DNA from: Massilia putida
Lineage (GTDB): Bacteria; Pseudomonadota; Gammaproteobacteria; Burkholderiales; Burkholderiaceae_D
Length of the DNA: 64,000 bases
Direction of reading: 5' to 3'
Assembly: GCF_001941825.1 (NCBI RefSeq)
Contig: NZ_CP019038.1
Span: 4,278,001-4,342,000, forward strand
Below, in pieces: positions 2,077 through 60,673 of the stretch. Numbering within the stretch: position 1 is the stretch's first letter; each line of letters starts with the position of its first letter. The position numbers and the translations under genes were made by a program. The notes under the pieces were generated by a model that ran no database searches, had not been told where the DNA came from, and was given only the letters and a program-made list of their open reading frames with translations.

Positions 2077-2207
2077 ACCTCGGAAAACCGTCGCGAGCGG
2101 CAGCAATGGCGTTCGAGAAGCCCAGCTGTACGAATAGTACAGCGAGCATCGCAGCCTGCGCGGCCCGGTCGACAGTGCAACGCGCAGCAGGTTTTGCGAC
2201 GTTCCCG
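2077..2207 (+). repeat. Dispersed structured repeat, copy A
   Basis: This fills the gap between the Sel1 gene and the 3' end of dapF. The outer arms CGTCGC (2089-2094) and GCGACG (2196-2201) can pair, and the centre holds GCTGTAC (2125-2131), a five-base loop and GTACAGC (2137-2143). The segments GCGAGCATCGCAG and TGCAACGCGCAGCAGG are shared with copies B and C. The middle stem seen in B and C is weak here. A small reverse-strand frame inside it is an artefact of the repeat. Confidence 0.8.
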
Positions 2208-3071
2208 TCAGATTTCGATCTCGCCTTCGAACACGGTCTCCGCCGGACCGGTCATGTAGACGGGCTGGCCTTCGCCTGCCCAGTTGATGGTCAGCTTGCC
2301 GCCGCGCGCCTGGACCTGCACGGGCGAATCCAGCAGGCCGCGCCGGATGCCGGCCACGACGGCGGCGCAGGCGCCGGTGCCGCAGGCCAGCGTCTCGCCG
2401 ACGCCTCGTTCGAACACGCGCAGCTTCACGTGGCCGCGGTCCAGCACCTGCAGGTAGCCGGCATTCACACGGCGCGGGAAACGTGGATGGTGTTCGATCT
2501 GCGGGCCGGTCTCGAGTACGGGCGCCGCGTCGACGTCGGCAACGACCTGCACCGCGTGCGGATTGCCCATCGAGACCGCCGACACGAGGACGGTCTGTTC
2601 CTGCCCTTTTTGCGAGACGGTGAGCGGCCACAGCGTGTCCCGTCCTGCGGCCACGCCTTCCAGACCGGCCGCATCGAACGGCACCCGGGCCGGTTCCAGG
2701 ATCGGAGCGCCCATATCCACCGTGATATTGCCGTCGTCTTCCAGGCGCGGCGTGATGATGCCGCTCATCGTTTCGACGCGGATGCTGCGCTTATCCGTCA
2801 GCCCTTTGTCGCTGACGAAGCGCACGAAGGCGCGCGAACCGTTGCCGCACTGCTCGACTTCGCCGCCGTCGCTGTTGAAGATGCGATAGCGGAAATCGCT
2901 GCCTGGCGTCACCGGCCGCTCGACGACGAGGATCTGGTCGGCGCCGATGCCGAAGCGGCGGTCGGCAATGTGGCGCCATTGTTCCGGGCCGAAGTCGATG
3001 TGCTGGTTGATCGCATCGATGACGACGAAGTCGTTGCCGGCGCCGTGCATCTTGGTGAACTTGAGTTTCAT
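2208..3071 (-). CDS. dapF: Diaminopimelate epimerase
   Basis: DapF interconverts LL- and meso-2,6-diaminopimelate, the last step before lysine and a peptidoglycan precursor; it is cytoplasmic. The 287-residue product has the usual length. It starts with the family signature [16 protein letters not shown] and carries both catalytic-cysteine motifs, [10 protein letters not shown] (Cys75) and [10 protein letters not shown] near residue 226. It is the last gene of a leftward operon behind two LpxL-type acyltransferases, separated from the nearer one by 10 bases, so cell-wall and lipid A functions are co-transcribed. Its stop codon abuts repeat copy A. Confidence 0.97.
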
Positions 3072-3081
3072 GGTGTGGTCT

Positions 3082-3945
3082 TTAATCGTAGAACGAAGGC
3101 TCGCCGGGCGGCCGGGTCTTGAAGCGCTTGTGCGTCCAGAAATACTCGGCCGGATGTTCGCGCACGCGGTCCTCGATGAAGGCGTTCATGCGGCGGGTGG
3201 CGGCGATGATGTCGTCGCCGGGGAAATCTTCCCATGCTGGATAGAACTCTACCCGATAGCCTTTGTAGTTGGGCAAGAAAGTGGCGACGAGCGGAATGAC
3301 TTTTGCGCCGGTCGCGCCCGCCAGGCGGCCCATTGCGGTCAAGGTCGCGGCCGGCACGCCGAAGAACGGCACGAAGGCGGCATCCTTTTCGCCGAAATCC
3401 ATGTCCGGCAGCATGTAATAGGGAATGCGTTCGCGCAGCGCGCGGATGATCGGCTTGATGCCGTCGCTGCGCGTGAACAGGCGCACGGGGCCGTAGCGTT
3501 CCCGGCCATAGCGCAACAAATCGTCGAACGCTTTGTTCTTTTGCGGCGAATACATGGTCGACAGCGGCATCACGCGTGCCGCCACGCCGCCCACGTCCAG
3601 GCAGACGAAGTGCGGGCAGAACAGGATGGTCGGGCCGCTTTCCATCTGCTCCTGCGGGACCTTCGGGACGACTTCGATCAGGCCGTGGATGCGTTTGAAC
3701 GGCGCCCACCAGATCAGCGAGCGCTCCAGGATGCTGCGCGAATAGGCCATGAAGTGGCGCTTGGCGATGTCGACCCGCTCCGCTTCGCTCAATTCCGGCA
3801 TGCACAGGCGCAGGTTGATCAGCGCGATCTTGCGGCGCTTGGGGATCGCGTAATACATCAGCCAGCCGACCGCATTGCCGATGCGACCGAGGACAGGCAG
3901 CGGCAGGAAGTGCAGCAGCCACAACAGGAAAATCAGGAACCTCAT
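3082..3945 (-). CDS. LpxL/HtrB-type lipid A acyltransferase (second of pair)
   Basis: A 287-residue inner-membrane protein of the lysophospholipid acyltransferase family that adds secondary acyl chains to lipid A. An N-terminal membrane anchor (residues 3-33) is followed by the catalytic HX4D motif in [11 protein letters not shown] and a [21 protein letters not shown] block typical of the family. The start is set by an ATGA overlap with the upstream paralogue: its ATG at 3945 shares bases with the neighbour's TGA. Longer upstream reading would run through the neighbour in another frame and is not real. The pair probably differ in acyl chain or position; sequence alone does not tell which is LpxL and which LpxM. 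Confidence 0.9.
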
Positions 3946-4793
3946 GCGACGGTCTCGGCTTGCGGTGCTGCAACGCCTTGCGGCTTCTTGTAGCGGTTGT
4001 AACTCCAGAAATACTGGGCGGGGCAGAAGGCGATGAGTTTTTCCATCTGGCGGTTGATGCTGGCGGCCTGCTGGCCCGCGTCGCCGTCCAGCGAGCCTTC
4101 GAACGGCACGAAGCGGATGGCGAAGCCGCGGCCGCGCGGCAGGCGTTCCGCATACACGGTCAGGATGTCGGCCTTGCCCAGCTGGGCCAGCTTGGCGGGC
4201 AGGGTCATCGTATAGGCGTCGCGCCCGAAGAACGGCGCCCACACGCCTTCGCCTTCCTGCGGCACCTGGTCGGGCAGGACGCCCACCGGCTGCCCGCCCC
4301 GCAGCGCCTTGACGAGCATACGCACCCCGGCCAGGTTGGCCGGGGCCAGGTGCATGTGCTGGCGCGCACGGGCGCCTTCGACGAGGGGTTTCAGCGCGCT
4401 CTGGCGCGGCGGGCGGTACATGACCGTCAGCTCGACGCGCAGCGACACCTGTTGCGCGGTCAGTTCGAAGCAGCCCAGGTGCGGCGTGAGGAAGACGATG
4501 CCGCGGCCGGCGTCGAGCTGGCGCTGGACCAGTTCCCAGTTTTCCATGGTGACGTGGCGGGTGACGCGTTCCTGCGGCGCGCACCAGACGAACGGCAGTT
4601 CGGCGATCGCTTTGCCGGATTCGGCGATCGCGGCGCGCAGGTGGCCGCCGTAACCGGCCCGTTCAAGATTCTCGCGCAGGCGCCGACGGTGCGACGGAGA
4701 TAGCAAATAGACAACCCAGCCGAGCGCGGCGCCGAGCGCGTGCAGGGCACGCAGCGGCAAAAACGACAGGATTCGAAACAAAAGGACGAGCAT
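3942..4793 (-). CDS. LpxL/HtrB-type lipid A acyltransferase (first of pair)
   Basis: A 283-residue relative of the following gene, with a membrane-anchoring N-terminus (FRILSFLPLRALHALGAALGWVVYLL region) and the catalytic HX4E motif in TPHLGCFE. Further family blocks are VMYRPPRQ and GVLPDQVPQEGEGVWAPFFG. It should transfer an acyl chain from acyl-ACP to a lipid A precursor at the inner membrane. It heads the leftward operon with the second acyltransferase (4-base overlap) and dapF. Its start lies 180 bases from metK, which is transcribed the other way. Confidence 0.9.
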   Translation of the reverse strand: MLVLLFRILSFLPLRALHALGAALGWVVYLLSPSHRRRLRENLERAGYGGHLRAAIAESGKAIAELPFVWCAPQERVTRHVTMENWELVQRQLDAGRGIVFLTPHLGCFELTAQQVSLRVELTVMYRPPRQSALKPLVEGARARQHMHLAPANLAGVRMLVKALRGGQPVGVLPDQVPQEGEGVWAPFFGRDAYTMTLPAKLAQLGKADILTVYAERLPRGRGFAIRFVPFEGSLDGDAGQQAASINRQMEKLIAFCPAQYFWSYNRYKKPQGVAAPQAETVA

Positions 4794-4973
4794 TTATTGA
4801 TTTAAGGTAGAGAACCGATGGGTTGCTGTGCCAGAATTTTTGGAGGAGCGTAAAATACCACTTGTGTAGCATCCGCGGAGTTAATGACAACTTGCGAAGC
4901 GGAATATAAATCTCGCTAAAGCGTCGCAGGCTTTGATGCTGCGGCAATTTTTATTACAGTATCAGGAGCCTCA
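4794..4973. promoter_or_regulatory. Divergent lpxL-metK promoter region with leader hairpin
   Basis: A 180-base divergent spacer. On the plus strand ATGACA (4884-4889) and TATAAA (4905-4910) form a possible metK promoter with a short 15-base spacer. Just before metK a GC stem (4923-4929 with 4939-4945) is followed by a run of five T, which resembles a small intrinsic terminator or 5' stabilising hairpin. A CAGGAG ribosome site precedes the ATG. No known SAM riboswitch class was recognised. Confidence 0.45.
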
Positions 4974-6143
4974 ATGTCTTCCAACGACTACCTCTTCACG
5001 TCCGAATCCGTTTCGGAAGGCCACCCGGACAAGGTTGCCGACCAGATCTCCGACGCCATCCTTGACGCCATCCTCGAGCAAGACCCGCGCGCGCGCGTGG
5101 CTGCCGAGACCCTGTGCAACACGGGTCTCGTGGTGCTGGCCGGGGAGATCACGACGCACGCAAACGTCGATTATATTCAAGTTGCACGCAACACCATCAA
5201 GCGCATCGGTTACGACAACACCGACTACGGCATCGACTATAAGGGTTGCGCCGTGCTGGTCGCCTACGACAAGCAGTCCCCGGACATCGCCCAGGGCGTC
5301 GACGAAGGCGCGGGTCTCGACCTCGACCAGGGTGCCGGCGACCAGGGCCTGATGTTCGGCTACGCCTGCGACGAGACGCCGGAACTGATGCCGGCCGCTA
5401 TTTATTACGCGCACCGCCTCGTCGAGCGCCAGTCGCAGCTGCGCAAGGACGGCCGCCTGCCGTGGCTGCGTCCGGACGCCAAGTCGCAGGTCACGCTGCG
5501 CTACGTCAACGGCCGTCCGGTGTCCGTGAACACCGTCGTGCTGTCGACCCAGCACGCGCCGGAAGTCAGCCACAGCCAGATCGAGGAAGCGGTGATCGAA
5601 GAGATCATCAAGCCCGTGCTGCCGCGCGAGTGGCTGCAGGACACCCGCTACCTGGTCAACCCGACCGGTCGCTTCGTCATCGGCGGCCCGCAGGGCGACT
5701 GCGGCCTGACCGGCCGCAAGATCATCGTCGACACCTACGGCGGTGCCGCACCGCACGGCGGCGGCGCGTTCTCCGGCAAGGATCCGTCCAAGGTCGACCG
5801 CTCGGCCGCGTACGCCGCCCGCTACGTCGCCAAGAACGTCGTGGCCGCCGGCCTGGCGCGCCAGTGCCAGGTGCAGGTCAGCTACGCGATCGGCGTGGCC
5901 CGTCCGATCAACATCACGGTGTACACGGAAGGCACGGGCGTGATCCCGGACGAGAAGATCGCCGAACTGGTGATGGAACACTTCGACCTGCGCCCGAAAG
6001 GCATCGTCCAGATGCTCGACCTGCTGCGTCCGATTTACGCCAAGTCGGCCGCCTATGGTCACTTCGGCCGCGAAGAGCCGGAATTCACCTGGGAGCGCAC
6101 CGACAAGGCCGCGCTGCTGCGCGCCGAAGCCGGCCTGGCGTAA
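4974..6143 (+). CDS. metK: S-adenosylmethionine synthetase
   Basis: MetK makes S-adenosylmethionine from methionine and ATP in the cytosol. The 389-residue product is of standard length and near-complete in family motifs: [21 protein letters not shown] at the N-terminus (ATP and metal site), [12 protein letters not shown] (methionine loop region), and the P-loop-like [20 protein letters not shown]. It opens a methyl-cycle cluster followed by ahcY and metF, so SAM synthesis, SAH removal and methyl-THF supply sit together. A CAGGAG site lies 7-8 bases ahead of the ATG. Confidence 0.98.
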
Positions 6144-6172
6144 TTCCAGTTCAACTTGGGCCCCGCTTCTGC

Positions 6173-6225
6173 GGGGGCGACGGTCCCTCCGCGGGGGGCG
6201 ACGGTTCCTCCGCAGGGGCGACGGC
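6173..6225 (+). repeat. Short GC-rich tandem repeat
   Basis: Three imperfect direct units of about 20 bases built around GGGGCGACGGT(T/C)CCTCCGC lie just after metK. No gene is present here. The units differ by single bases and may reflect slippage. Confidence 0.6.
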
Positions 6226-6252
6226 TCGTATAAGTGTTGCTTTAAGCACGTC

Positions 6253-6272
6253 ATTCCCGCGAAGGCGGGAAT
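6253..6272. repeat. REP-like palindrome
   Basis: A perfect inverted repeat, ATTCCCGC-GAAG-GCGGGAAT. This is the core of a palindrome widespread in intergenic regions of several proteobacteria and usually found in many copies. It lies between metK and the ahcY riboswitch and could act as a transcription terminator or mRNA-stabilising hairpin. Confidence 0.7.
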
Positions 6273-6303
6273 TCAAGTTCGCCGCATCGTGTTAAACTAA
6301 TGA

Positions 6304-6372
6304 ATTCCGAGGAGCGTTGCGACGAGATTCCCCATCTCGCCAGGCTCGGATATCAACACCGCGCTCACGTTA
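6304..6372 (+). promoter_or_regulatory. S-adenosylhomocysteine riboswitch
   Basis: The leader of ahcY matches the SAH riboswitch known from this position in Burkholderiales. It has CCGAGGAGCG (6307-6316), a variable hairpin (CGAGAT/ATCTCG, 6322-6338), the core GCCAGGCTCGG and the pseudoknot partner GCGCTCAC (6361-6368). CCGAG at the start pairs with CTCGG. SAH binding is known to turn on downstream expression, matching ahcY function. A strong AAAGGAGG site follows at 6389. Confidence 0.93.
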
Positions 6373-6401
6373 CTTTTTTCTTAACTTGAAAGGAGGGCGT
6401 G

Positions 6402-7817
<1,416 letters not shown>

Positions 7818-7843
7818 TCTGGTAAGCTCTTCCGTGAATTGAC

Positions 7844-7886
7844 GCCGCACTCCCGCCGGATTCCATCGTCGGCGGGAGGTGCGGTG
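7844..7886 (+). terminator. Long GC hairpin after ahcY
   Basis: CCGCACTCCCGCCG pairs with CGGCGGGAGGTGCGG across an 11-base loop, with one bulged G. No T-run follows, so it may be an mRNA-processing or partial termination site rather than a classic intrinsic terminator. Confidence 0.5.
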
Positions 7887-7915
7887 TGCTGGACAACCCC
7901 TCACGAAAGACACAC

Positions 7916-8269
7916 ATGCGCTTGCTCCTGACCTGGCTGATCAATGCGGCAGCCCTGATGGCCTTGCCTTACCTGATGCATTCGGTATCGGTCGACAATC
8001 TCGGCGCCGCCCTCGTGGCCGCGCTCGTCCTGGGCCTCGTGAACACGGTGATCCGTCCCGTGCTCGTCGTGCTGACCCTGCCCGTGACCTTTTTGTCGCT
8101 CGGCCTGTTCATCCTGGTGATCAATGCGCTGTTGTTCTGGCTCGTCGCGCACCTCGTCGCGGGCTTCCATGTGGCCGGGTTCTGGTCTGCCTTCCTGGCG
8201 GCGATCCTGTACAGTGTCATTTCGTGGGCGCTTTCTACCTTACTTCTCAATAAAGATGGAAACCCCTAA
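7916..8269 (+). CDS. Four-helix membrane protein, phage holin superfamily IV type
   Basis: A small inner-membrane protein of 117 residues whose sequence is almost entirely four hydrophobic helices (LLTWLINAAALMALPYLM, LVAALVLGLVNTVIRPVLVVLT, VTFLSLGLFILVINALLFWLV, FWSAFLAAILYSVISWALSTLL). The pattern NTVIRPVLVVLTLPVTFLSLGLF is typical of the PF04020 family, often annotated as a holin although most members are chromosomal with unknown role. It lies between ahcY and metF and its 3' end overlaps metF by 14 bases, so it is probably co-transcribed. ATG 7916 is chosen because an upstream GTG at 7886 lies in the hairpin. Confidence 0.8.
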   Translation: MRLLLTWLINAAALMALPYLMHSVSVDNLGAALVAALVLGLVNTVIRPVLVVLTLPVTFLSLGLFILVINALLFWLVAHLVAGFHVAGFWSAFLAAILYSVISWALSTLLLNKDGNP

Positions 8270-9089
8270 CATCAGTATCGAGTTTTTCCCGCCCAAGACC
8301 CCCGAGGGCGCGGAAAAACTGCGCGTGGCTCGCCAGAAGCTGGCCGAGCTGAATCCGAAATATTTCTCCGTGACGTTCGGCGCCGGCGGCAGCACCCAGC
8401 ACGGCACGCTGTCCACCGTGCTCGAGATCCTGGCCGAGGGTCATGAGGCCGCACCGCACCTGTCGTGCGTGGGCGGCACGCGCGAATCGATCCGCGCGAT
8501 CCTGCAGGAATTCAAGGACAAAGGCATCCGCCGTCTCGTCGCGCTGCGCGGCGACTTGCCGAGCGGTTATGGCGGCGCGGGCGAATTGCGCTATGCCAGC
8601 GACCTCGTCGAGTTCATCCGCCAGGAAACGGGCGACTGGTTCCACATCGAGGTGGCCGCGTATCCGGAAATGCATCCGCAGGCAAGGTCTCCGCAGGACG
8701 ATCTGCAAGCGTTCGCCCGCAAGGTCAAAGCCGGCGCGAATGCCGCGATCACGCAGTATTTCTACAATCCGGACGCGTATTTCCAGTTCGTGGACAATGC
8801 GCGCAAACTGGGTGTGGACGTGCCCGTCGTGGCCGGCATTATGCCGATCACGAATTACACCCAGCTGATGCGCTTCTCGGACATGTGCGGCGCCGAGATT
8901 CCGCGCTGGATCCGTTTGAAACTGGCCAGCTTCGGCGACGATTCCGCGTCGATCAAGGCGTTCGGCCTGGACGTGGTGAGCGGCCTGTGCGAGCGCCTGC
9001 TCGCCGGTGGCGCGCCCGGCCTCCATTTCTACAGCATGAACCAGGCGGCGGCCACGACCGCGATCTGGCAGCGCATCACCGGCGCCTGA
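8256..9089 (+). CDS. metF: 5,10-Methylenetetrahydrofolate reductase
   Basis: MetF reduces methylene-THF to methyl-THF, the methyl donor for methionine synthesis, using flavin. The 277-residue product shows the family opening ISIEFFPPKTPEGAEKL (catalytic Glu in EFFPPK), TFGAGGST, and RGDLP in the flavin/folate site. The start is ATG 8256, inside the last codons of the membrane-protein gene. It closes the methyl-cycle cluster, and a strong terminator follows. Confidence 0.97.
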   Translation: METPNISIEFFPPKTPEGAEKLRVARQKLAELNPKYFSVTFGAGGSTQHGTLSTVLEILAEGHEAAPHLSCVGGTRESIRAILQEFKDKGIRRLVALRGDLPSGYGGAGELRYASDLVEFIRQETGDWFHIEVAAYPEMHPQARSPQDDLQAFARKVKAGANAAITQYFYNPDAYFQFVDNARKLGVDVPVVAGIMPITNYTQLMRFSDMCGAEIPRWIRLKLASFGDDSASIKAFGLDVVSGLCERLLAGGAPGLHFYSMNQAAATTAIWQRITGA

Positions 9090-9107
9090 CCGATAGACGC
9101 CATCGAT

Positions 9108-9143
9108 GCCCGTGCAGCCAACCGGCGCACGGGCATTTTTTTA
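9108..9143 (+). terminator. Intrinsic terminator of the metF operon
   Basis: GCCCGTGC (9108-9115) pairs with GCACGGGC (9127-9134), followed by a run of seven T. This is a clear rho-independent terminator, and the leftward ligase gene ends right at its far edge. Confidence 0.9.
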
Positions 9144-9749: not shown

Positions 9750-9756
9750 GGATGAA

Positions 9757-11796: not shown

Positions 11797-11831
11797 CCGC
11801 GGCCGCGCCGCGCACGGGTCGAGGAGGCCAT

Positions 11832-12797: not shown

Positions 12798-12818
12798 CCT
12801 CAACGATCACGCCATACC

Positions 12819-14779: not shown

Positions 14780-14827
14780 AACCGGCTACAATATCGGATT
14801 GTTGCACCGCACAATCGAAAACCCATC

Positions 14828-15490: not shown

Positions 15491-15494
15491 ATCG

Positions 15495-16538: not shown

Positions 16539-16545
16539 CAGTTGG

Positions 16546-21259: not shown

Positions 21260-21350
21260 CACGTAATTCCGATCCTGTTCCACTGACCTGCCGCGGCATC
21301 CGCGCCGCGGCCGGACGGGATTCGTTTTGCCCAAACAATCAGGAGACAAC

Positions 21351-22577
21351 ATGCGCATGCCTACCATCGCGCTGGCGCTGCTCGCGCTCGCGTATTGCCT
21401 TCCCGCGTCCGCCGTGGACGTCCAGAACTACTTGCGCGCCAATGCTGCCGCGAACAGCGAAGGCGGTGGCCAGACCTGCTTCGGCCTCGCCGGCGCGGGT
21501 GCGAAGTACCGGCTGGGGAACGAGTGCGGCGTCTATGGCGAAATGCTGCTGGGCCAGCGCCTCGTGCAGGGCGACGCCGGCGAAGACGTGAAGGCCTATG
21601 CGATGCTCAACCTGGGCAACGCAGCCGCGTCGAACAATGCGAAGCGCCCCGAGGGCGGCTGGAAGATCGGCCTGCCGCAGGCCTATCTGGCCATCGAACA
21701 CGTGAGCGGATTGGGTGACGCGGCGCTGTGGATCGGACGCCGCTACTACAAGCGCGAAGGCGTGAACGCCAACGACTTCCTGTACTGGAATCCGTCGGGC
21801 ATGGGCGTCGGTATCGAGAACGTGCCGCTGGGCCCGATGAAGTTCAGCTATGCCTACCTGCACGACGACCAGCAGACGATGCCGATCATGCGCGTCGGCG
21901 ACACGGCGAACCGGCACGATTTTCAACTCCGCGGCGTGCCCGTGAATCCGGACGGCACCTTGGAACTCGGCCTGGCGCTGATCCGCAGCGACGGTGAGCG
22001 TGGCCACCACGGCGGGTCGATGCTCACCGTGCAGCACCGCCAGCGCATCCTGGCCGGCGCCGGCGACAATCGTCTCGCGGTGCAGTGGGGGACGGGCGCG
22101 GGCACGGATAATGGCGCGACGGGCGACATCAGCAACGGCCACGACGTGCACCGGCTGCGCGTCGTCGAGAGCTGGTATGCGCAGGTCACGCGGCGCTTCG
22201 GCGGAGAGCTCGTCGCCGTCTGGCAGCGCGACACGGCGCATGATGCCGCGAAGGCGAAGACGTGGGCCTCGGCGGGCGGGCGCATGTCGTATGCGCTTCT
22301 TGAGCACGTGAAGCTGCTGGCGGACGTGGGCCACGACCGCGTCGCGCCGCAGAACGGCGATGTGCGCCGGCTGACCAAGGTCACGGGCGCGATCGCGCTG
22401 ACGACCGCGCCGGGTTACTTCGACCGTCCCGAGCTGCGCCTGTTTTTCACGCACGCGCACTGGAACGAGGCCGCGCGCGCGGCCGCGCGGACGAACGATC
22501 CGCTGGCCGCCAACGGCGTGTTCGGCACGGCGCTGTCCGGCTATACCGTCGGCGTCACGTTCGAAAACTGCTGGTGA
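21351..22577 (+). CDS. LamB-like carbohydrate porin
   Basis: A 408-residue outer-membrane protein with signal peptide MRMPTIALALLALAYCLPASA. The maltoporin-type opening VDVQNYLRANAAANSEGGGQ is followed by GAGAKYRLGNECGVYGE and WIGRRYYKR. The C-terminus ends GYTVGVTFENCW; a terminal aromatic residue is expected for beta-barrels. It should form a sugar-specific trimeric pore that feeds the periplasmic binding protein. An AGGAGA site supports ATG 21351. It is the last gene of the importer cluster, 91 bases after the kinase. Confidence 0.88.
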   Translation: MRMPTIALALLALAYCLPASAVDVQNYLRANAAANSEGGGQTCFGLAGAGAKYRLGNECGVYGEMLLGQRLVQGDAGEDVKAYAMLNLGNAAASNNAKRPEGGWKIGLPQAYLAIEHVSGLGDAALWIGRRYYKREGVNANDFLYWNPSGMGVGIENVPLGPMKFSYAYLHDDQQTMPIMRVGDTANRHDFQLRGVPVNPDGTLELGLALIRSDGERGHHGGSMLTVQHRQRILAGAGDNRLAVQWGTGAGTDNGATGDISNGHDVHRLRVVESWYAQVTRRFGGELVAVWQRDTAHDAAKAKTWASAGGRMSYALLEHVKLLADVGHDRVAPQNGDVRRLTKVTGAIALTTAPGYFDRPELRLFFTHAHWNEAARAAARTNDPLAANGVFGTALSGYTVGVTFENCW

Positions 22578-22582
22578 TCAAG

Positions 22583-22702
22583 GACACGTCGAAAAACCTG
22601 CTGCGCGTTGCACTGCTGTGCTGCGATGCTCGCTGTACTCCTCGTACAGCTGCGCTTCTCCCACAGCATTGCGGCCGCTCGCGACGTTTTTTCGAGGTGG
22701 CC
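22583..22702 (-). repeat. Dispersed structured repeat, copy B
   Basis: This lies between the porin and the convergent kinase, in opposite orientation to copies A and C. Outer arms ACGTCG (22586-22591) and CGACGT (22682-22687) pair. The middle stem TGCTGTG/CACAGCA (22614-22620 with 22662-22668) encloses the conserved hairpin GCTGTAC (22632-22638) / GTACAGC (22644-22650) with a five-base loop. Small frames read through it are artefacts. Confidence 0.85.
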
Positions 22703-23623
22703 TCAAGCATGCATGCCCGCCAGCAGCGTATCGATTGCCGCCAGCGACGGCGGCGTGGCGCCGGCCGCGAGGCAGGCCGCGGCGCCTGCCGCGACGGCGA
22801 AGCGCAGGTGAGAGAGACCGTCGCGACCGGGCGCATGCAGCATGCTCCAGGCCAGCGCGGCGATGCTGGCGTCGCCCGCGCCGACCGTGTCCACGGGCAT
22901 GATGCGCGGCGCCGCCACATTCCACGCGCCGTCCGGCGTATGCAGCGAGGCGCCGGCCGCACCCTTCGTGTACAGGTAGCTGGCGTCCGGGTTCCAGCCG
23001 CGCAGCGTGACAAAGGCCGCATCCGCGTCAGTCGTGCGCAGCAGGCCGACGAGGTCTTCTTCCGACACTTTGACGACGTCGGCCAGGGCCGTCATGCGGC
23101 GCAGGGTCGGGTCGTAGTTCTCGTCCATCAGCGCGCGGAAGTTCGGGTCGTAGCTGATGCGCACGCCTTGCGCCTTCAGGCTCTCCGCCAGCGCGACGAG
23201 CTTGCCCGCGAGCGGCCGGCGCGCGAGGCTGATGCCGCCGAAATGCGCCCAGCGGCAAGCCGTGTGCCAGCCTTGCGGCAGTTGCGCGGCGTCGAAGTGC
23301 AGGTCGGCGCTGTCGTCGCCGACGAAGAAATAGCTGGGCGGGTCGAGCCGGTGCACGATCGCGAGCAGCGGCGATTTATCGAGACGCTGCAGGAAGCGCT
23401 CGTCCAGGCCCGCGTCGAGCGTGGCGCGCCACAGCTGGTCGCCGAACACGTCGCGGCTGACGGCGCCGGCGAACGCGCTGGGCGCACCCAGCTTCGCCAT
23501 CGCGCGCGCCACGTTCCACGTCGAGCCGCCCGTCACGCTGTGCCAGCGCGTGGCGCCGGTGTCATCCACGATCATATCGGTGAGCGCTTCGCCGGCGGCG
23601 ACGAATACGGGAAAGTCGGCCAT
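22703..23623 (-). CDS. PfkB-family sugar kinase (epimerase operon)
   Basis: A 306-residue fructokinase-like enzyme with AAGEALTDMI, GGSTWNVARAMAKLG and the catalytic VDTVGAGDASIAAL (Asp about residue 251). It follows the AGE-family gene by one base in a leftward operon. This suggests the pair turns mannose into fructose and then fructose 6-phosphate. It shares long blocks with the kinase at 20.3 kb (GEALTDMI, FAGAVS, RFLQR, SADLHF), so the two arose by duplication. Substrate is inferred from context only. Confidence 0.9.
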   Translation of the reverse strand: MADFPVFVAAGEALTDMIVDDTGATRWHSVTGGSTWNVARAMAKLGAPSAFAGAVSRDVFGDQLWRATLDAGLDERFLQRLDKSPLLAIVHRLDPPSYFFVGDDSADLHFDAAQLPQGWHTACRWAHFGGISLARRPLAGKLVALAESLKAQGVRISYDPNFRALMDENYDPTLRRMTALADVVKVSEEDLVGLLRTTDADAAFVTLRGWNPDASYLYTKGAAGASLHTPDGAWNVAAPRIMPVDTVGAGDASIAALAWSMLHAPGRDGLSHLRFAVAAGAAACLAAGATPPSLAAIDTLLAGMHA

Positions 23624-49993: not shown

Positions 49994-49999
49994 GCCATC

Positions 50000-54500: not shown

Positions 54501-54761
54501 GGTGTCGGCGTCCATCCAGCCATCGGGCAGGTGGGCCAGGAACGCGCCGATGGCGATGCCGGGGAGGGCACGCCAGCCGAAGACGACGGTCAATGCGAAC
54601 CCGACGCCGGCCGGCAGGTAGATGGGGGTGGCATAGCCGGCCGGCAGGGCCAGCGTGTGGCTCAGCAGGAGGGTGCCGAGGTAGACGGCGACGGTCGCCA
54701 GGTTGGCCAGCCACAGCCGGAGCCCCTGCCGTTCTTGACTGCCGCTGCGATTCAGGTCCAT
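51522..54761 (-). CDS. MASE1-CHASE-PAS-GGDEF-EAL cyclic-di-GMP protein
   Basis: A 1079-residue membrane protein in cyclic-di-GMP metabolism. Order: an N-terminal MASE1-like set of helices (about 10-215), a periplasmic CHASE-like segment (about 220-480), a helix near 490-510, a PAS domain (IVTVGADGQVLSANRATAALFGY), GGDEF (LARLGGDEFIIVL, near residue 728) and EAL. The GGDEF site is intact. In the EAL motif the Ala is Val (AEVLLRW, Glu854), with ITET, DDFGTGYSSL, KIDRGFV and EGVET all kept, so phosphodiesterase activity is likely. An AAGGGG site precedes the ATG. Confidence 0.93.
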   Translation of the reverse strand: MDLNRSGSQERQGLRLWLANLATVAVYLGTLLLSHTLALPAGYATPIYLPAGVGFALTVVFGWRALPGIAIGAFLAHLPDGWMDADTAPGIAAVATAVATLGSLTQAWIGAQWFRRLVDPALGTARDVARFLALTPVFCLINPTVNVAALYRLGLLTAAAQAPNWINWWAGDAVGVLLAAPLVWIVCGQPRRLWRRRARLVALPLLLAAGVVIAAYEQAVHWEHQQYLQTYRLKAQQVADELQAELREHERFVDTFARALGAEDRFMERDRFLRTASGYVDGRPDIAAINWLVPVTNDERNAFETWVRINVDPDFTGLRDLGRNGRLLPAGTRARYLPLLYTWPPVNTMVRGMDFLTAPERAEAVARALAGTAPTASGPIRLVINGATGIALFRAVREPGRPLLGMLALLLDTNAFVRQAVRHVGFPGFDVSLADATPAATRRTLAGDPGRRAVSGDYTVMLEFGGRTLQLRFSPTAAYMEGERRLASWIVLTTGLLLAALLGALMLIVSGERAQIEAQVADRTARLQAILDNAADAIVTVGADGQVLSANRATAALFGYPPAHLAGLAFTALVPGHGGETGPDLLARLAGSAPDDRQLDGLNAQGEPLPLAVSVSIVDLAGERLFVCILRDLTEQQRAQARIHRLAHHDPLTGLENRHALGMRLEQQLAQARRARQPLAVLFIDLDHFKKINDSLGHQAGDELLTGAAARMKDLLRDVDTLARLGGDEFIIVLGGPLSPDSVSTVAVRLVESLQQPYRLAGTTAHSGASVGVALFPEDGTDPDTLLRHADMAMYAAKREGRGNFQFFSPAMNAATHEHLMLENRMWTTLEKGGFDVHLQAQVELETGRVIGAEVLLRWQDPELGNIDPGRFIPIAEESGLILPLGDWVLARAMALLAEWREDGMSQLRLAVNLSARQFSGGALLSRLDQLLAEHAIDPARLELEITETAAMRDPENTRNLLLQLRARGFKLAIDDFGTGYSSLAYLKLFAIDRIKIDRGFVRDIETNPNDAAIVDATIGLAHALGLGVIAEGVETRAQCGFLRDRNSDEAQGYLFGRPMPVREFRDFVRAQAQPVPGL

Positions 54762-54968
54762 GCTCGAGGCCCCTTCGACGTAAATACAGTGTAGCGCAAA
54801 CGTTCCAAGGACCGGCTCGGATTGTTTATTGCAAACAGCCCTTGCGGGTTTGAACTGCGGCCGTTACAATCACGCCCCGAAGCAGCGACACTGTTTGAGT
54901 TTGATCAGTTCGAGCAAAAACAGTTGACGAAGTTTTTATGTTGCTTCATACTCTGCGGTTCTTCGCGG
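54762..54968 (+). promoter_or_regulatory. Promoter of the tRNA-tuf operon
   Basis: TTGACG (54924-54929) and CATACT (54947-54952) are separated by an optimal 17 bases, with a GC-rich discriminator (CTGCGG) after the -10 box, typical of stringently controlled stable-RNA promoters. The rest of the 207-base spacer has no gene. Confidence 0.75.
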
Positions 54969-55053
54969 TGGGGTGGCCGAGTGGTTAAAGGCAGCAGACT
55001 GTAAATCTGCCCTCTCTGAGTACGCTGGTTCGAATCCAGCCCCCACCACCAAA
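54969..55053 (+). tRNA. tRNA-Tyr (GTA)
   Basis: Acceptor GGTGGGG/CCCCACC, anticodon loop CTGTAAA giving GTA, long variable arm as in class II tRNAs, T-loop TTCGAAT, and encoded CCA. It is the first tRNA in the tuf operon. Confidence 0.97.
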
Positions 55054-55102
55054 TGCGTTGATCGTGTAGTGAATCGAATGTTGAAGCTGAGACGTACCTC
55101 GC

Positions 55103-55176
55103 GCGGGTGTAGCTCAATGGTAGAGCTGAAGCCTTCCAAGCTTATGACGAGGGTTCGATTCCCTTCACCCGCTCCA
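55103..55176 (+). tRNA. tRNA-Gly (TCC)
   Basis: Acceptor GCGGGTG/CACCCGC, anticodon loop CTTCCAA giving TCC, T-loop TTCGATT, discriminator T and encoded CCA. It is second in the tRNA-tuf operon, in the order known from many proteobacteria. Confidence 0.97.
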
Positions 55177-55188
55177 GTTTCAAAATAA

Positions 55189-55263
<75 letters not shown>

Positions 55264-55344
55264 GAATTTAGACGGCTGTCGGCAGTTTCGACCGTCAGGT
55301 GTGCCTGGTAATTTTCAATATCGTTAGGATCTTAGGAGTCGAGA

Positions 55345-56535
55345 ATGGCAAAGGAAAAATTCGAACGGACCAAGCCGCACGTGAACGTCGGCACCATTGG
55401 TCACGTTGACCACGGCAAAACCACCCTGACGGCTGCAATCGCAACCGTTCTGTCGAAGAAATTCGGCGGCGAAGCCAAGGCGTACGACCAGATCGACGCG
55501 GCTCCGGAAGAAAAAGCACGCGGCATCACGATCAACACCGCGCACGTCGAGTACGAGACGGCCAACCGTCACTACGCTCACGTCGACTGCCCGGGCCACG
55601 CCGACTACATCAAGAACATGATCACCGGTGCTGCCCAGATGGACGGCGCGATCCTGGTGTGCTCGGCCGCTGACGGTCCGATGCCGCAGACCCGCGAACA
55701 CATCCTGCTGGCGCGCCAGGTGGGTGTTCCGTACATCATCGTGTTCCTGAACAAGTGCGACCTGGTCGACGACGCGGAACTGCTGGAACTGGTCGAAATG
55801 GAAGTGCGCGAACTGCTGTCGAAGTACGAGTTCCCGGGCGACGACCTGCCGATCATCAAGGGTTCGGCGCGTATGGCGCTGGAAGGCCAGCCGGGCGAAA
55901 TGGGCGAAGAGTGCATCATGCGCCTGGCCGAAGCGCTGGACACCTACATCCCGACGCCGGAACGTGCCGTTGACGGCGCCTTCCTGATGCCGGTGGAAGA
56001 CGTGTTCTCGATCTCGGGCCGCGGTACCGTGGTGACCGGTCGTGTCGAGCGCGGCATCATCAAGGTCGGCGAAGAGATCGAAATCGTCGGCATCACCGAT
56101 ACCGTCAAGACGACCTGCACCGGCGTGGAAATGTTCCGCAAGCTGCTGGACCAGGGTCAAGCTGGCGACAACGTCGGCCTGCTGCTGCGCGGTACCAAGC
56201 GTGAAGACGTCCAGCGTGGTCAGGTTCTGGCCAAGCCGGGTTCGATCAAGCCGCACACCGACTTCACGGGCGAAGTGTACGTCCTGTCGAAGGACGAGGG
56301 CGGCCGTCACACCCCGTTCTTCAACAACTACCGTCCGCAGTTCTACTTCCGTACGACTGACGTGACCGGTTCGATCGTGCTGCCGGCCGACAAGGAAATG
56401 GTCATGCCGGGCGACAACGTGTCGATCACCGTCAAGCTGATCGCGCCGATCGCGATGGAAGAAGGTCTGCGCTTCGCAATCCGCGAAGGCGGCCGTACCG
56501 TCGGCGCCGGCGTGGTTGCCAAGATCCTGGCCTAA
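55345..56535 (+). CDS. tuf: Elongation factor Tu
   Basis: EF-Tu carries aminoacyl-tRNA to the ribosome with GTP. The 396-residue product has G1 [13 protein letters not shown], the switch region RGITIN, G3 DCPGHADY, G4 NKCD and G5 region GSARMA. It follows three tRNA genes in one operon, and a clear hairpin follows it. Its nucleotide use is the strongly biased pattern of a highly expressed gene. A second tuf copy is normal elsewhere in this group. Confidence 0.99.
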
Positions 56536-56558
56536 TCGCCTGATCAAGTAATACCTCC

Positions 56559-56582
56559 GGGCGGAACGTTTCTGTTCCGCCC
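56559..56582 (+). terminator. Hairpin after tuf
   Basis: GGGCGGAAC (56559-56567) and GTTCCGCCC (56574-56582) form a perfect nine-base stem with a six-base loop. No T-run follows, so it may be a partial terminator or protect the 3' end of tuf mRNA. Confidence 0.65.
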
Positions 56583-56594
56583 AACAATAGAGTG

Positions 56595-56623
56595 TTGCGC
56601 GAAATACCCAAGTAGCGTATAAT
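56595..56623 (+). promoter_or_regulatory. Promoter of the tRNA-Trp-secE-nusG operon
   Basis: TTGCGC (56595-56600), a 17-base spacer and a perfect TATAAT (56618-56623). Transcription would begin about 20 bases ahead of tRNA-Trp. Confidence 0.82.
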
Positions 56624-56648
56624 GCTCGATTCAACTAGAAGTTTTTGT

Positions 56649-56724
56649 AGGGGCGTAGCTCAATTGGCAGAGCGTCGGTCTCCAAAACCGAAGGTTGGGG
56701 GTTCGATGCCCTCCGCCCCTGCCA
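56649..56724 (+). tRNA. tRNA-Trp (CCA)
   Basis: Acceptor AGGGGCG/CGCCCCT, anticodon loop CTCCAAA giving CCA, T-loop TTCGATG, discriminator G, and encoded CCA. The location before secE is conserved. Confidence 0.97.
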
Positions 56725-56761
56725 CCGAATTCGGTGCCAGGCACCCGAAAGTAAATTAAGT

Positions 56762-57151
56762 ATGTCTAATCAATCCGTGCAAACCGTCGGCACCTCGAAC
56801 GACAAGTTCAAGGTCGCGCTGGCAGTGGTTGCTACGATTGCAGGCGTGGTCGGCTTTTTCATTCTGAAAGGCCAGAACAAACCAGCCCTGATGTGCGCAG
56901 GCGCACTCGTGGCTGGTTTGGCTATTGCCGTCCTGCTGTTGTGGACTTCCGCCACCGGTCGCGATTTCCTGAGCTTCGCGAAGGAATCCGTACGTGAAAC
57001 GAAGAAGGTTGTATGGCCTACCCGCAAGGAAGCGACCCAGATCACCGCCGTGGTGTTCGGGTTCGTGCTGGTGATGGCAATTTTCCTGTGGGGCACGGAT
57101 AAGATTCTGGAATTTCTGATGTACGACGTGATCCTGGGGTGGAAACAATAA
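56762..57151 (+). CDS. secE: Preprotein translocase subunit SecE
   Basis: SecE clamps SecY in the inner-membrane export channel. The 129-residue form has three hydrophobic helices ([51 protein letters not shown]), as in other proteobacteria, and the conserved [17 protein letters not shown] before the last helix. The TAA stop overlaps the nusG ATG by one base. Confidence 0.97.
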
Positions 57152-57765
57152 TGAGCGATAACGTGCAGCAAGATAACGTGCCGGGCGATGCCCCGGCACA
57201 AGACGCTGGTGCGCCGCTGAGTACTCCGGTCAGCAACAAGCGCTGGTATGTCGTGCATGTCTATTCCGGCATGGAAAAAAGTGTGATGCGCGGCCTGATC
57301 GATCGCATCGAGCGCGCCGGCATGCAGGAACAGTTCGGCCAAATCCTGGTTCCGACCGAAGAAGTGGTCGAAGTCAAGAATGGCAGCAAATCGGTGTCCG
57401 AGCGCCGCTTCTTCCCGGGTTATGTGCTGGTCGAGATGGAAATGACCGACGAGACCTGGCACCTCGTGAAGAACACGCCGAAAGTCACCGGCTTCATCGG
57501 CGGCAAGAGCAACAAGCCGACCCCGATTCCGGCGCGCGAGATCGACAAGATCATGCAGCAGGTCCAGGAAGGTGTCGAAAAGCCGCGGCCCAAAGTGCTG
57601 TACGAAGTGGGCGAGCAGGTGCGCATCAAGGAAGGCCCGTTCACCGACTTCAACGGCAGCGTCGAAGAAGTCAACTACGAAAAATCGAAGGTGCGGGTGT
57701 CTGTCACCATCTTCGGCCGCGCGACTCCGGTGGAACTGGAGTTCGGGCAGGTGGAGAAAGTCTAA
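57151..57765 (+). CDS. nusG: Transcription termination/antitermination factor NusG
   Basis: NusG binds RNA polymerase, Rho and S10. The 204-residue product has a variable N-terminal tail of about 30 residues, the NGN domain ([39 protein letters not shown]), and the C-terminal KOW domain ([18 protein letters not shown]). ATG 57151 overlaps the secE stop; a GTG 12 bases upstream is in frame but unlikely. A 224-base gap containing repeat copy C separates it from rplK. Confidence 0.97.
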
Positions 57766-57842
57766 AACGCCGAATCGGAGCGTCGCAGCAGCAAGGCGGA
57801 ATCCGATAAGAGGAGCTCCGCCTAATGAGAAGGCACTCCGAG

Positions 57843-57948
57843 AAAGCGTAGCGAGCGGCGGCAGTTTCGGTTGAGAGGCGCAGCTGTACATGGGTACAGC
57901 GAGCATCGCAGGCCGAAACTGCAACGCGCAGTAGCTTGATCGGGGCGC
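57843..57948 (+). repeat. Dispersed structured repeat, copy C
   Basis: This lies inside the nusG-rplK gap of the ribosomal operon. The middle stem GCAGTTTCGG (57861-57870) and CCGAAACTGC (57913-57922) pairs perfectly over ten bases. Inside it is the conserved GCTGTAC (57883-57889) / GTACAGC (57894-57900) with a four-base loop. It shares GCGAGCATCGCAG and GCAACGCGCAG with copies A and B. Confidence 0.85.
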
Positions 57949-57989
57949 CAGGTGGAGCGCTACCACTCATAATCGACAAAGGAGCCATC

Positions 57990-58420
57990 ATGGCAAAGAA
58001 AATCGTCGGTTTTATCAAGCTGCAAGTGCCGGCTGGTAAAGCAAACCCGTCCCCCCGATCGGCCCGGCCCTCGGCCAGCGCGGTCTGAACATCATGGAAT
58101 TCTGCAAGGCCTTCAATGCCAAGACTCAAGGCATGGAACCGGGCATGCCGATTCCGGTCGTGATCACCGCCTTCGCGGACAAGTCCTTCACTTTCGAGAT
58201 GAAGACCCCGCCGGCAACGTACCTGATCAAGAAGTTCTCGGGCGTCACCAAAGGCTCGCCGAAGCCGCATACCGACAAGGTCGGCACGCTGACCCGTGCC
58301 CAGGCTGAAGAAATCGCAAAAATCAAGCAGCCGGACCTGACCGCCGCTGACCTGGACGCCGCTGTGCGCGTCGTGGCCGGCTCGGCACGTTCGATGGGCA
58401 TCACGGTGGAGGGTATCTAA
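57990..58420 (+). pseudogene. rplK: Ribosomal protein L11, frameshifted by one missing C
   Basis: L11 lies in the GTPase centre of the 50S subunit. The first 22 codons ([22 protein letters not shown]) and, in another frame, the rest (from [22 protein letters not shown] to the stop) match the family. Six C at 58051-58056 should be seven; adding one restores a 143-residue protein of standard length. As written, translation stops at 58086-58088 after 32 residues. The gene is strongly conserved and sits between nusG and rplA, so a sequencing or assembly error in the C-run is much more likely than a real mutation. GGAG precedes the ATG. Confidence 0.93.
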
Positions 58421-59116
58421 ATGGCTAAGCTGTCCAAGCGCGTCAAAGAAATGAAAGCCAAAGTCGACCGTAACAAGGTCTACGCTTTCGACAATGCCGT
58501 TTCGATCGTCAAAGAATTCGCAACCGCCAAGTTCAACGAGTCGATCGACGTCGCCGTTCAGCTGGGCGTGGATCCGAAGAAGTCGGACCAGGTCGTTCGC
58601 GGTTCCGTCGTTCTGCCGGCTGGTACCGGCAAGACCGTCCGCGTCGCCGTCTTCGCACAGGGCGACAAGGCCGAGCAGGCTAAAGCCGCCGGCGCCGACA
58701 TCGTCGGCATGGAAGACCTGGCAGAGCGCGTCAAGGCCGGCGACATGCCGTTCGACGTCGTGATCGCTTCGCCGGACACCATGCGTATCGTCGGTACCCT
58801 GGGCCAGATCCTGGGCCCGCGCGGCCTGATGCCGAACCCGAAAGTCGGCACCGTGACCCCGGACGTGGCTGGCGCCGTGCGCAATGCCAAGGCTGGTCAG
58901 GTCCAGTACCGTACCGACAAGGCCGGTATCGTGCACGCCACCATCGGCCGTAAGTCGTTCAGCGACGAACAGCTGAAGACCAACCTGGTCGCGCTGATCG
59001 ACGCCCTGAACAAAGCCAAGCCGGCTTCGTCGAAGGGTATCTACCTGCGCAAGGTCGCGATCTCGTCGACCATGGGCGCCGGCGTGCGTGTCGATCACGC
59101 TACCCTGGCTGCTTAA
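58421..59116 (+). CDS. rplA: Ribosomal protein L1
   Basis: L1 binds 23S rRNA at the E-site stalk and in many bacteria represses its own L11-L1 message. The 231-residue product has the family blocks [16 protein letters not shown] [33 protein letters not shown] and [18 protein letters not shown]. It follows rplK without a gap. It ends at the start of the rplJ leader. Confidence 0.98.
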
Positions 59117-59364
59117 TAGCAAAGAATGAAGCCCCTACAGAGTAGCGTAGGGCAGATCTTTGGGCTGGCGGACTGAACCCCGCCAGGCAATCAAAGACCG
59201 TTGGGCCGATAGCAGAGGTTGAGCTTGAGGTTAATACAACACCCAACGCAGATGGCGAACCCGAACAAGTTTTGTAGTCGATGCTTTGTCGTACTTCTTA
59301 ACTTCGGACGCCGTGTTCGAACCGATGCGGGGGACGTCCCTCACATCATTTAAGGAGATTGACC
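59117..59364 (+). promoter_or_regulatory. L10 leader (rplJL autoregulatory RNA)
   Basis: This 248-base leader holds nested stems expected for the site where the L10-L12 complex represses translation: CCCTAC/GTAGGG (59133-59152 region), CTGGCGG/CCGCCAG (59165-59187), an outer ATCTTTG/CAAAGAC pairing, and CGTTGGG/CCCAACG further on. AAGGAG (59352-59357) is the ribosome site for rplJ. Confidence 0.8.
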
Positions 59365-59889
59365 GTGGGTCTTAATCTGAATGACAAAAAGGTCGTCGTC
59401 GAAGAAGTTAGCGCAAAAGTAGCAACCGCGCAAACCATCGTCGTCGCCGAGTACCGTGGCATCCAGGTTAGTGCTCTGACGAAACTCCGTGCAAATGCTC
59501 GTTCGCAGGGCGTGTACCTGCGTGTTCTGAAGAACACGCTGGCTCGTCGCGCTGTGGAAGGCACCCAGTTCGCACCGCTGGCTGAGACCATGGTTGGTCC
59601 GCTGATCTACTCGATCTCGGACGACGCCGTCGCAGCAGCCAAGGTGCTCAGCGACTTCTCGAAGACCAACGACAAACTGGTGGTCAAGGGCGGTAACTAC
59701 GCTGGTAAGAACCTGGATGTCGCCGGCGTCAACGCGCTGGCAAGCATCCCGAGCCGTGAAGTCCTCATCGCCCAGCTGCTGGGCGTCATGCAGGCTCCGG
59801 TGTCCGGCTTTGCACGAGTTCTGGCTGCAATCGCAGCACAAAAAGGCGAAGGTTCCGCAGCACCGGCAGAAGCCGCTGCAGCAGAATAA
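59365..59889 (+). CDS. rplJ: Ribosomal protein L10
   Basis: L10 anchors the L7/L12 stalk dimers on the 50S subunit. A 174-residue product starting [32 protein letters not shown], with the family block [16 protein letters not shown] and an Ala/Glu-rich C-terminal tail that binds L12. GTG 59365 is chosen over TTG 59359 since AAGGAG is well placed for it. The leader suggests autoregulation by L10. Confidence 0.96.
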
Positions 59890-59940
59890 GCAAGCCTTTT
59901 TGCTCAAGTACTAATCACACATCACAATTTGGAGTTTCAA

Positions 59941-60315
59941 ATGGCAATTAGCAAAGAAGAGTTCCTGGACGCAGTTGGCGCAATGTCGGTCATGGAACTG
60001 AACGACCTGGTCAAGGCATTCGAAGAGAAGTTCGGCGTGTCGGCAGCTGCAATGGCAGCTCCGGCAGCTGGCGGCGGCGCCGCTGCACCGGCTGCTGAAG
60101 AGCAGACCGAGTTCAACGTCGTGCTGGCTGAAGTCGGCGCGAACAAGGTCGGCGTCATCAAGGCCGTCCGCGAAATCACCGGTCTGGGCCTGAAAGAAGC
60201 CAAGGACCTGGTCGATGGCGCACCGAAGACCGTCAAGGAAGCCCTGCCGAAAGCTGACGCTGAAGCCGCTAAGAAGAAGCTGGAAGAAGCTGGCGCCAAG
60301 GCCGAGCTCAAGTAA
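59941..60315 (+). CDS. rplL: Ribosomal protein L7/L12
   Basis: The multicopy stalk protein that recruits translation factors. The 124-residue product has the dimerising N-terminal domain ([30 protein letters not shown]), an Ala/Gly hinge, and the C-terminal domain [46 protein letters not shown] site supports ATG 59941. A hairpin (60328-60347) follows, then a 358-base gap before rpoB. Confidence 0.98.
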
Positions 60316-60673
60316 TACATATGCAAAGGGCGCTGGAAACAGCGCCCGGCGCCGGAGTCAAAGCGCGCAGATCCCCGCCGGAAGGTGGGGTATGCGGCTT
60401 TGGCTCTTTTGTCGTCCCTACGACAAAATACAGGGAACCTTGAAAAACCGCCGCGGGCATCGCAAACCAAATATGCAACGCGGAGCCGGTTTTGCGACGT
60501 ACCCGATGCCGTACCCCTGTTTTGGAAGCACTGCAGCACAGCATTATCGTAACACAGCAGCACCGGTTCCTAATCACCCGGCCGAATGCGGCGAGATTTG
60601 AGGCCTTGCATGTGGTGGCTTAACTACTGGCAATTCCTGAATTCTCATCCTTTCTGTCACTCACGGAGTGTCC
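60316..60673. other. rplL-rpoB spacer with hairpin and a repeat derivative
   Basis: No gene is seen. GGGCGCTG-GAAA-CAGCGCCC (60328-60347) is a perfect eight-base stem with a GAAA tetraloop, a likely partial terminator or RNase III-type processing site between L7/L12 and RNA polymerase. Repeat copy D follows at about 60435-60505. ACGGAG lies just before the rpoB start. Confidence 0.6.
60435..60505 (+). repeat. Dispersed structured repeat, short derivative D
   Basis: It keeps both outer arms of the element (CTTGAAAAACCGCCGCG on the left; GCATCGCA and TGCAACGCGGAGCCGG plus TTTTGCGACG on the right) but lacks the central GCTGTAC/GTACAGC hairpin. It looks like a deletion product of the full element. 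Confidence 0.6.

Follow-up and report, generated by a model that had tools for sequence, protein, structure and literature searches.

A 64,000-nt stretch of DNA from Massilia putida (contig NZ_CP019038.1, positions 4,278,001 to 4,342,000), hereafter called the window, carries copies of a structured repeat of ~121 nt that is dispersed through this genome and those of its relatives. The repeat is probably a short non-autonomous mobile element of the miniature inverted-repeat transposable element (MITE) type, similar to the ERIC and YPAL elements, that is mobilised through its folded strand, and a few of its copies are possibly retained by their hosts.

Each element folds into an outer helix P1 (~17 bp), an internal loop, a second helix P2 (~12 bp), another internal loop and a terminal hairpin P3. 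Read from 5′ to 3′, the P1 arm is followed by the loop GTMGCGA, the P2 arm, the loop GAGAAGCGCA and the P3 hairpin (GCYGTAC-loop-GTACRGC), after which come the loop GAGCATCGCA, the P2′ arm, the loop GCAGYA and the P1′ arm. The internal-loop sequences are nearly invariant, while the stem sequences vary freely with pairing kept, and the sequence of P1 varies widely even between copies of one genome. Because GCGAGC-type and GCGCAG-type motifs alternate, the two internal loops resemble, in our reading of the sequence, a single motif that recurs in the opposite sense.

A preliminary description of three window copies (A, B and C) had recognised the shared central stem GCTGTAC/GTACAGC, which lies where it was placed, and the middle stems of copies B and C, which pair as described. 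Its two flanking words, GCGAGCATCGCAG and GCAACGCGCAG, are free of mismatches in all three copies and have no other exact occurrence in the window, although with up to two mismatches the words alone occur there at chance level (9 versus 7.7 expected, and 69 versus 81.5 expected). The outer arms, in contrast, had been drawn in the wrong register, as the proposed left arm CGTCGC sits in a conserved internal loop; the true ~17-bp P1 helix of copy B is GGCCACCTCGAAAAAAC / GGTTTTTCGACGTGTCC.

The covariation of the family is very strong. Among 36 copies from this genome, 27 of the 36 pairs carry a double change, versus 16 ± 1.9 after shuffling. These copies hold 148 double-change cells, versus 46 ± 7 when shuffled and at most 57 when the partners are slid by one to three columns, a comparison biased in favour of the structure over its slid versions since the structure was drawn from the same 36 sequences. 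For 54 non-Massilia copies (alignment A4), 90.2% of cells are paired and the covariation score is 0.770, which falls to 0.189 on shuffling and to at most 0.121 on sliding; the 607 double-change cells compare with 186 ± 12 in shuffles; A4 was fitted to the covariance model and hence leans towards it, and the kinship of the sequences inflates such comparisons. RNAalifold finds 41 pairs in A4, 32 of them having double changes. Pairing is thus retained despite base change both within one genome and between genera, as had been proposed from three copies. Nor is the repeat pattern as a whole a product of chance, as an 18-base core allowed up to two mismatches matches 39 times in the 7.5-Mb genome versus none for a reversed control.

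The covariance model used for searching (R1) was built from the 36 copies of this genome, A, B and C among them, and finds four copies in the window: the three already described plus an internally deleted copy, D. Their coordinates, and those of the parts of copy B, are as follows.

2069–2211, plus strand: copy A, whole element (cmsearch 113 bits, E 7e-29)
22577–22706, minus strand: copy B, model match (cmsearch 134 bits, E 1e-34)
22582–22702, minus strand: copy B, 121-nt element between the P1 outer ends (from comparison of filled and empty sites)
22686–22702, partner 22582–22598, minus strand: copy B, P1 5′ arm (model alignment)
22661–22672, partner 22610–22621, minus strand: copy B, P2 5′ arm, the covarying, strand-biased helix (model alignment)
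22632–22650, minus strand: copy B, P3 hairpin GCTGTAC-loop-GTACAGC (model alignment)
22703–22706, minus strand: copy B, left TTGA target duplication, containing the TGA stop of a minus-strand open reading frame (ORF)
22578–22581, minus strand: copy B, right TTGA target duplication
57827–57955, plus strand: copy C, whole element in the nusG–rplK spacer (cmsearch 122 bits, E 2e-31; nusG, rplA and L11 domain matches)
60429–60509, plus strand: copy D, 81-nt internally deleted derivative (cmsearch 37 bits, E 6e-8)

Two of the copies, B and C, were inserted recently. At the site of copy B, two congeners (L447 and L450) read GCCTGATCACC without interruption, and two more (L448 and L449), also empty, differ slightly; four other loci (L451–L454) did not align at this site and are left out of the count. 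The filled site reads GCTTGA-element-TTGATCACC, with TTGA-element-TTGA in place of the single TGA of the empty site. The insertion was therefore precise, TTGA was duplicated, and both convergent genes keep their stop codons. Copy C is absent from all 29 congeners in which the nusG–rplK spacer was read (33 of 37 genomes matched in this search and three matching genomes were not read; the loci L316–L318 are 96–97% identical over 401 bases). Copy C's P1 arm is not in the empty site, and the idea that P1 arms derive from the target was rejected. In one further locus (L333), short element-like words lie near the end of nusG, upstream of the empty site, without a model match.

Direct repeats at the ends of P1 extend these observations to 233 copies, in which repeats of at least 4 bp occur 60 times versus 27.8 in shuffled pairings, those of at least 5 bp 29 times versus ~8, and those of at least 6 bp 11 times versus ~1.6. 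Most copies have no clear duplication, as would be expected either if they are old or if their ends are set wrongly. Two genomes of the Janthinobacterium group have only 7 common sites among 51 and 47 parsed copies, and the flanks at these sites are 84–98% identical, mostly above 93%; the sites not shared were not individually confirmed to be empty. The family is mobile, and the proposal of a mobile, palindromic, non-autonomous element is borne out by the empty sites, the 4-bp duplication and congener copy numbers that range from zero upwards. Two features by which MITEs are recognised, target-site duplication (TTGA at copy B and the excess among 233 copies) and empty sites in relatives, have thus both been found.

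The bases beside P1 follow T-N-A on both sides (left T 46%, A 45%; right T 38%, A 45%). A TNA target covers the stop codons TAA and TGA, so that insertion at such a codon regenerates a stop and the gene stays terminated, and targeting of this kind would account for most copies abutting stop codons. Among 113 copies that have a right-hand antisense gene ending nearby, 83 have that gene's end 14–18 nt away from the inner P1 end, which places it at the outer end of the helix. The codons at those gene ends are 43 TTA, 43 TCA, 25 CTA and 2 non-stops; the TAG stops (25 of 111) fall outside TNA. Contact with stops on the left side is weak, with 9 of 50 copies at 15–20 nt.

The two strands of the element are not equivalent. 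Of 250 distinct elements, all but 15 could be parsed; among these 235 copies, the strand as written folds better than its complement in 86%, with a mean advantage of 7.1 kcal/mol. A perfect pair has the same stability on either strand, so the bias reflects G-T pairs that are tolerated over A-C mismatches. Whatever the orientation of the neighbouring genes, the P2 duplex is stronger on the written strand, with shares that range from 94% (86 copies flanked by two antisense genes) down to 73% (33 copies between divergent genes), and the preference recurs in 23 of 26 hand-labelled lineages (p 9e-5; the lineages are partly dependent and mostly represented by one element each). The prediction for a cis-regulatory RNA of the host, selection on the transcribed strand, fails, because P2 favours the element's own strand in all neighbour classes. 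Since P2 favours one strand irrespective of host gene direction, host mRNA is not the main object of selection, and we read the bias as selection on the element's own strand and not on host transcripts.

At ~121 nt, the element is too short to encode an enzyme, which would be provided in trans. During transposition, the element would be recognised as one folded strand, either RNA or single-stranded DNA; recognition of this form would mean that active copies must keep their pairing and loops and not their stem sequence. P1, with its weaker strand bias, may behave more like terminal inverted repeats. Once it is located in an operon or a 3′ region, the element could act as a bulky hairpin in the transcript, and a few copies may be retained for long. 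A broader formulation is more doubtful, although conceivable: the machinery would read the folded single strand by way of its fixed loops while the stems drift, perhaps in a manner common to the ERIC- and YPAL-like elements of Beta- and Gammaproteobacteria, and the Xanthomonas RNA sX9 would be the transcript of one branch of such structure-addressed elements.

Some sites are occupied in more than one species. Same-site copies were found at pstB–phoU, between a FadB-like gene and a thiolase gene, at prpC–acnD in three genera, and at uppP–recQ (NCBIfam names; the FadB-like gene scores below its NCBIfam model cut-off). The pstB–phoU site is occupied in five Herbaspirillum-type genomes and two of Massilia, and P1 there is paired at 14–15 of 16 positions despite sequence differences. 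Pairwise comparisons suggest that stem sequences can shift abruptly without a change of site. At pstB–phoU, L099 and L104 have flanks 93–95% identical, with 8 of the 16 P1 positions double-compensated and 15 of 16 paired in both, while L097/L099 and L104/L107 are equally divergent in their flanks and yet have all 16 P1 positions and P2 unchanged. In two other pairs, P1 is altered and P2 barely so (L266/L291), or P2 is altered more than P1 (L052/L267). Possible routes for such jumps are replacement by another copy, conversion between copies, or templated repair. In P1 of 14 same-site pairs (224 positions), 23 changes are double, 9 are single and keep pairing, 15 are single and break it and 4 are of other kinds, with 20 of the 23 double changes falling in three pairs, two of which represent one site. 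In P3, which is readable in 11 same-site pairs, there are 3 double and 3 single changes and none that breaks pairing. We take this to mean that most copies are not strongly constrained once inserted, with retention possible at a few old sites. Some copies may nevertheless be an RNA with a function, as the preliminary description had allowed, given that there are single-copy genomes with the element at a common site.

Several observations weigh against mobilisation through a folded strand. The orientation of copies in the multi-genome set is non-random (both neighbours antisense for 86 copies and both sense for 43, as judged by a crude gene caller that uses G+C content at third codon positions), and neither this antisense excess nor the one-sided stop contact has an explanation in the reading we favour. 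The strand bias of P1 is weak (55% among the 78 Massilia-type copies, p 0.17; 66% among the remaining 157, p 2e-9; 17 of 26 lineages, p 0.17), that of the longer relatives is weak as well (11 of 17), and shared ancestry inflates the p-values of all such tests. Several genomes with same-site copies have one match in total, which is unexpected for a purely selfish element. Moreover, no transposase or integrase was recognised by eye in the 30 largest clusters obtained when 1288 ORFs around copies were compared all-against-all, where clusters were judged by their first 90 residues and no search was aimed at IS5-type transposases; these clusters hold ABC ATPases, regulators and metabolic enzymes. 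A pattern for the left end of the element, which an autonomous copy might share, occurs at 65 places in this genome, compared with 2 for a reversed control; 61 of the 65 coincide with known copies, and the other 4 have three mismatches. Finally, all 37 genomes of the genus encode Y1 transposases (PF01797), even the 7 without the element.

A possible, if doubtful, alternative is that an IS5-type transposase moves the family as double-stranded DNA, in the manner of an ordinary MITE, and that the stem covariation results from hairpin-templated (quasi-palindrome) mutation and not from selection. TNA targets are known for some IS5 subgroups, and the TNA duplication, the small strand bias of P1 (which by itself would fit an ordinary double-stranded-DNA MITE) and the stem jumps between similar flanks at a fixed site (L099/L104, L266/L291) all agree with such a history. 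However, templated correction would also perfect the loop palindromes, whereas the loops are nearly invariant and mismatched, and it would remove the G-T pairs, which persist in P2 with a strand bias. The wide differences in P1 among copies of one genome are likewise unlike fixed terminal repeats. A host regulatory RNA, acting as a 3′-end or intra-operon structure in stability, processing or attenuation and covarying through selection in place, is unlikely. Although the occupation of the same sites across species and genera, in several cases by the only match of a genome, the P1 pairing kept at pstB–phoU, the antisense excess and the one-sided contact with stop codons could all be understood in this way, copies B and C are recent, and orientation in this genome is mixed (++ 22, −− 15, +− 9 and −+ 8, with 23 of 77 left unassigned by the same crude gene caller). 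Single changes in P1 at shared sites broke pairing more often than they kept it, and the double changes are concentrated in few pairs. In addition, the P2 preference is independent of host transcription, and in the neighbour class with the most copies it is the less stable strand that would be present in the mRNA. A riboswitch or single-gene leader was also considered, and was rejected because the genomic contexts are too diverse.

The 5′ loop contains GTAG or GTCG, words that recall the tags of repetitive extragenic palindromes (REPs), among which those tagged GTAG or CGTC are described as a super-family in a portion of PMC3733652. It is nonetheless highly improbable that the family derives from REPs and depends on a Y1 transposase for its movement, with the GTAG-like loop words serving as the REP tag. 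Target duplications are present, and an element of ~121 nt with four conserved loop strands is not a palindrome of 20–40 bp. A partner of the REP-associated tyrosine transposase (RAYT) type was rejected as well, since neither of the two PF01797 genes in this genome adjoins a copy (the nearest is ~9 kb away) and such genes are present in the genus independently of the element.

Among known systems, the family works like ERIC and YPAL, which are closest to it in size, shape and unexplained movement, and it is not assigned to either by sequence. ERIC elements (also called IRU or RU-1; enterobacterial, 127 bp) are of similar length and form an imperfect palindrome that is one long stem with internal loops, and like our family they are intergenic and mobile by comparative evidence, with no mobilising enzyme identified in the passages of PMC2229807 devoted to them. 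One ERIC sequence also folds better on one strand (−52.6 versus −38.8 kcal/mol). The termini of ERIC are TA (Table 1 of PMC2229807), whereas copy B lacks a TA terminus and copies with clear duplications mostly end GG.../...CC. Model R1 gives the ERIC sequence 9.2 bits (E 0.43), and blastn of the same sequence against 245 elements returned no match at E ≤ 1. YPAL (RU-2; Yersinia, 167–168 bp) is likewise palindromic, without TA termini and not A+T-rich, and passages of PMC2229807 and PMC2759123 report target duplications, empty and filled sites and a possible effect on the upstream transcript. The published RU-2 sequence also folds better on one strand (−68.1 versus −59.4). YPAL is known to insert near stop codons. 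It differs in being 168 nt long and in its duplications, reported as 3–26 bp in part of PMC2229807, and RU-2 shares only 11-nt matches with elements of the family (E 0.88).

The Xanthomonas small RNA sX9 (Rfam RF02228) is an expressed RNA. Three of 12 longer, ~151-nt relatives of the element score above its gathering threshold (49.9–56.9 bits versus 44), and two more match below it; these longer relatives have the loops of the element. The alignment to sX9 involves the opposite strand and spans roughly half of the element, and the window copies and 21 further shorter-form loci have no match to sX9. For two Herbaspirillum strains, sX9 is one of the Infernal predictions tabulated in PMC6337395, which does not say whether these predictions are the element. 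MITEs such as NEMIS/Correia and RUP are, like the family, non-autonomous and short, with inverted arms and target duplication. The arms of MITEs are normally near-identical copies of transposon ends, whereas those of the family differ from copy to copy with pairing retained.

The family proved to be dispersed, as proposed, with many more copies than the three first noticed. Model R1 gives 89 matches in this genome at E ≤ 0.001, and 12 of these are the reverse strand of a listed copy, which leaves 77 places. A match is present in 30 of the 37 genomes of the genus, counting this one, and absent from 7; match counts, with reverse-strand repeats included, run from 1 to 50 in other congeners and reach 80 in this genome. 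Matches occur in 82 of 145 genomes and 34 of 44 genera of the GTDB family, among the matches listed (up to 23 per genome, so that high counts are lower bounds). At least 120 stretches in named genomes fit the sequence pattern, and the 80 listed include Massilia, Janthinobacterium, Herbaspirillum, Ralstonia, Zoogloea, Uliginosibacterium, Chromobacterium, Rubrivivax, Lautropia, Pseudacidovorax and one Solimonas. At the level of the class, 28 of 369 genomes (again with this one) matched, and many of the matches are of the ~151-nt form, in which the loops are kept and P3 is longer.

No Rfam family matched the window copies at the gathering cut-off, and the elements in 8 + 13 further shorter-form loci gave only chance-level Rfam scores at E ≤ 1. 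Literature searches, which covered few subscription papers, yielded no description in which the repeat was recognised. Given these results, the family seems to be undescribed in these bacteria. The outcomes that the preliminary description had named as fatal to its proposal, a search returning only its three copies without covariation or a match to a known repeat family, are not what we observed: there are many additional copies with strong covariation, and the scanned copies match no Rfam family.

At E ≤ 1e-5, neither 72,556 plasmid records nor 50,697 phage records held a match to the one element searched (L040). A 7.5-kb contig of a viral collection holds a copy (L314, 2458–2586), the sole pattern match in that collection. 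Clusters of two and three copies occur at loci L298 and L301, respectively. An Aeromonas caviae record (L496, 1480–1629) contains a relative (38.5 bits, E 3e-9), and the xylA–xylB spacer of a Yersinia frederiksenii plasmid (L497, 1440–1596) carries a related core hairpin that is 93% identical over 43 nt to two longer relatives and scores only 9.2 bits with R1.

For the movement of ERIC and YPAL, transposases were in 2007 a hypothesis without experimental support, according to a passage of PMC2229807. With tens of copies in some genomes, young insertions, empty sites and covariation that defines the structure, the question of how such small elements move becomes testable in soil bacteria that are harmless. 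Covariation among dispersed repeats need not indicate an RNA of the host and can instead mark the requirements of the machinery that moves them. Pipelines that search for regulatory RNAs in betaproteobacterial operons will encounter such elements, and stop-codon targeting helps to account for their position between operon genes.

The contexts of the window copies are as first described, with A and B between convergent genes and C between nusG and rplK. The genes beside A and B are as follows.

406–2055, plus strand: left of copy A, Sel1-repeat protein gene (PF08238)
2208–3071, minus strand: right of copy A, dapF (TIGR00652 DapF), convergent with the Sel1-repeat gene
21327–22577, plus strand: left of copy B, LamB porin gene (PF02264)
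22703–23623, minus strand: right of copy B, ORF with no NCBIfam name at E ≤ 1e-40, convergent with the LamB-porin gene

Copy A has an insert of ~13 nt on the 3′ side of P2. Copy D, whose end lies near the last coordinate of the preliminary description, retains P1 and has lost the part between two direct GCGAGC-type repeats; it is flanked by rplL (59929–60315; L7/L12 match) and by a plus-strand frame open from 60668 to the end of the window. Such 81-nt derivatives recur, with three in this genome (D included) and three in another (G079). Two further observations concern other parts of the window. The rplK gene (57991–58420) is interrupted in this genome, with 32 codons from its ATG versus 143 in 14 of 14 congeners read (L316–L329); the break falls at a C run of differing length and is probably a sequencing error. 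An S-adenosylhomocysteine (SAH) riboswitch aptamer lies at 6303–6373 of the window (56.9 bits).

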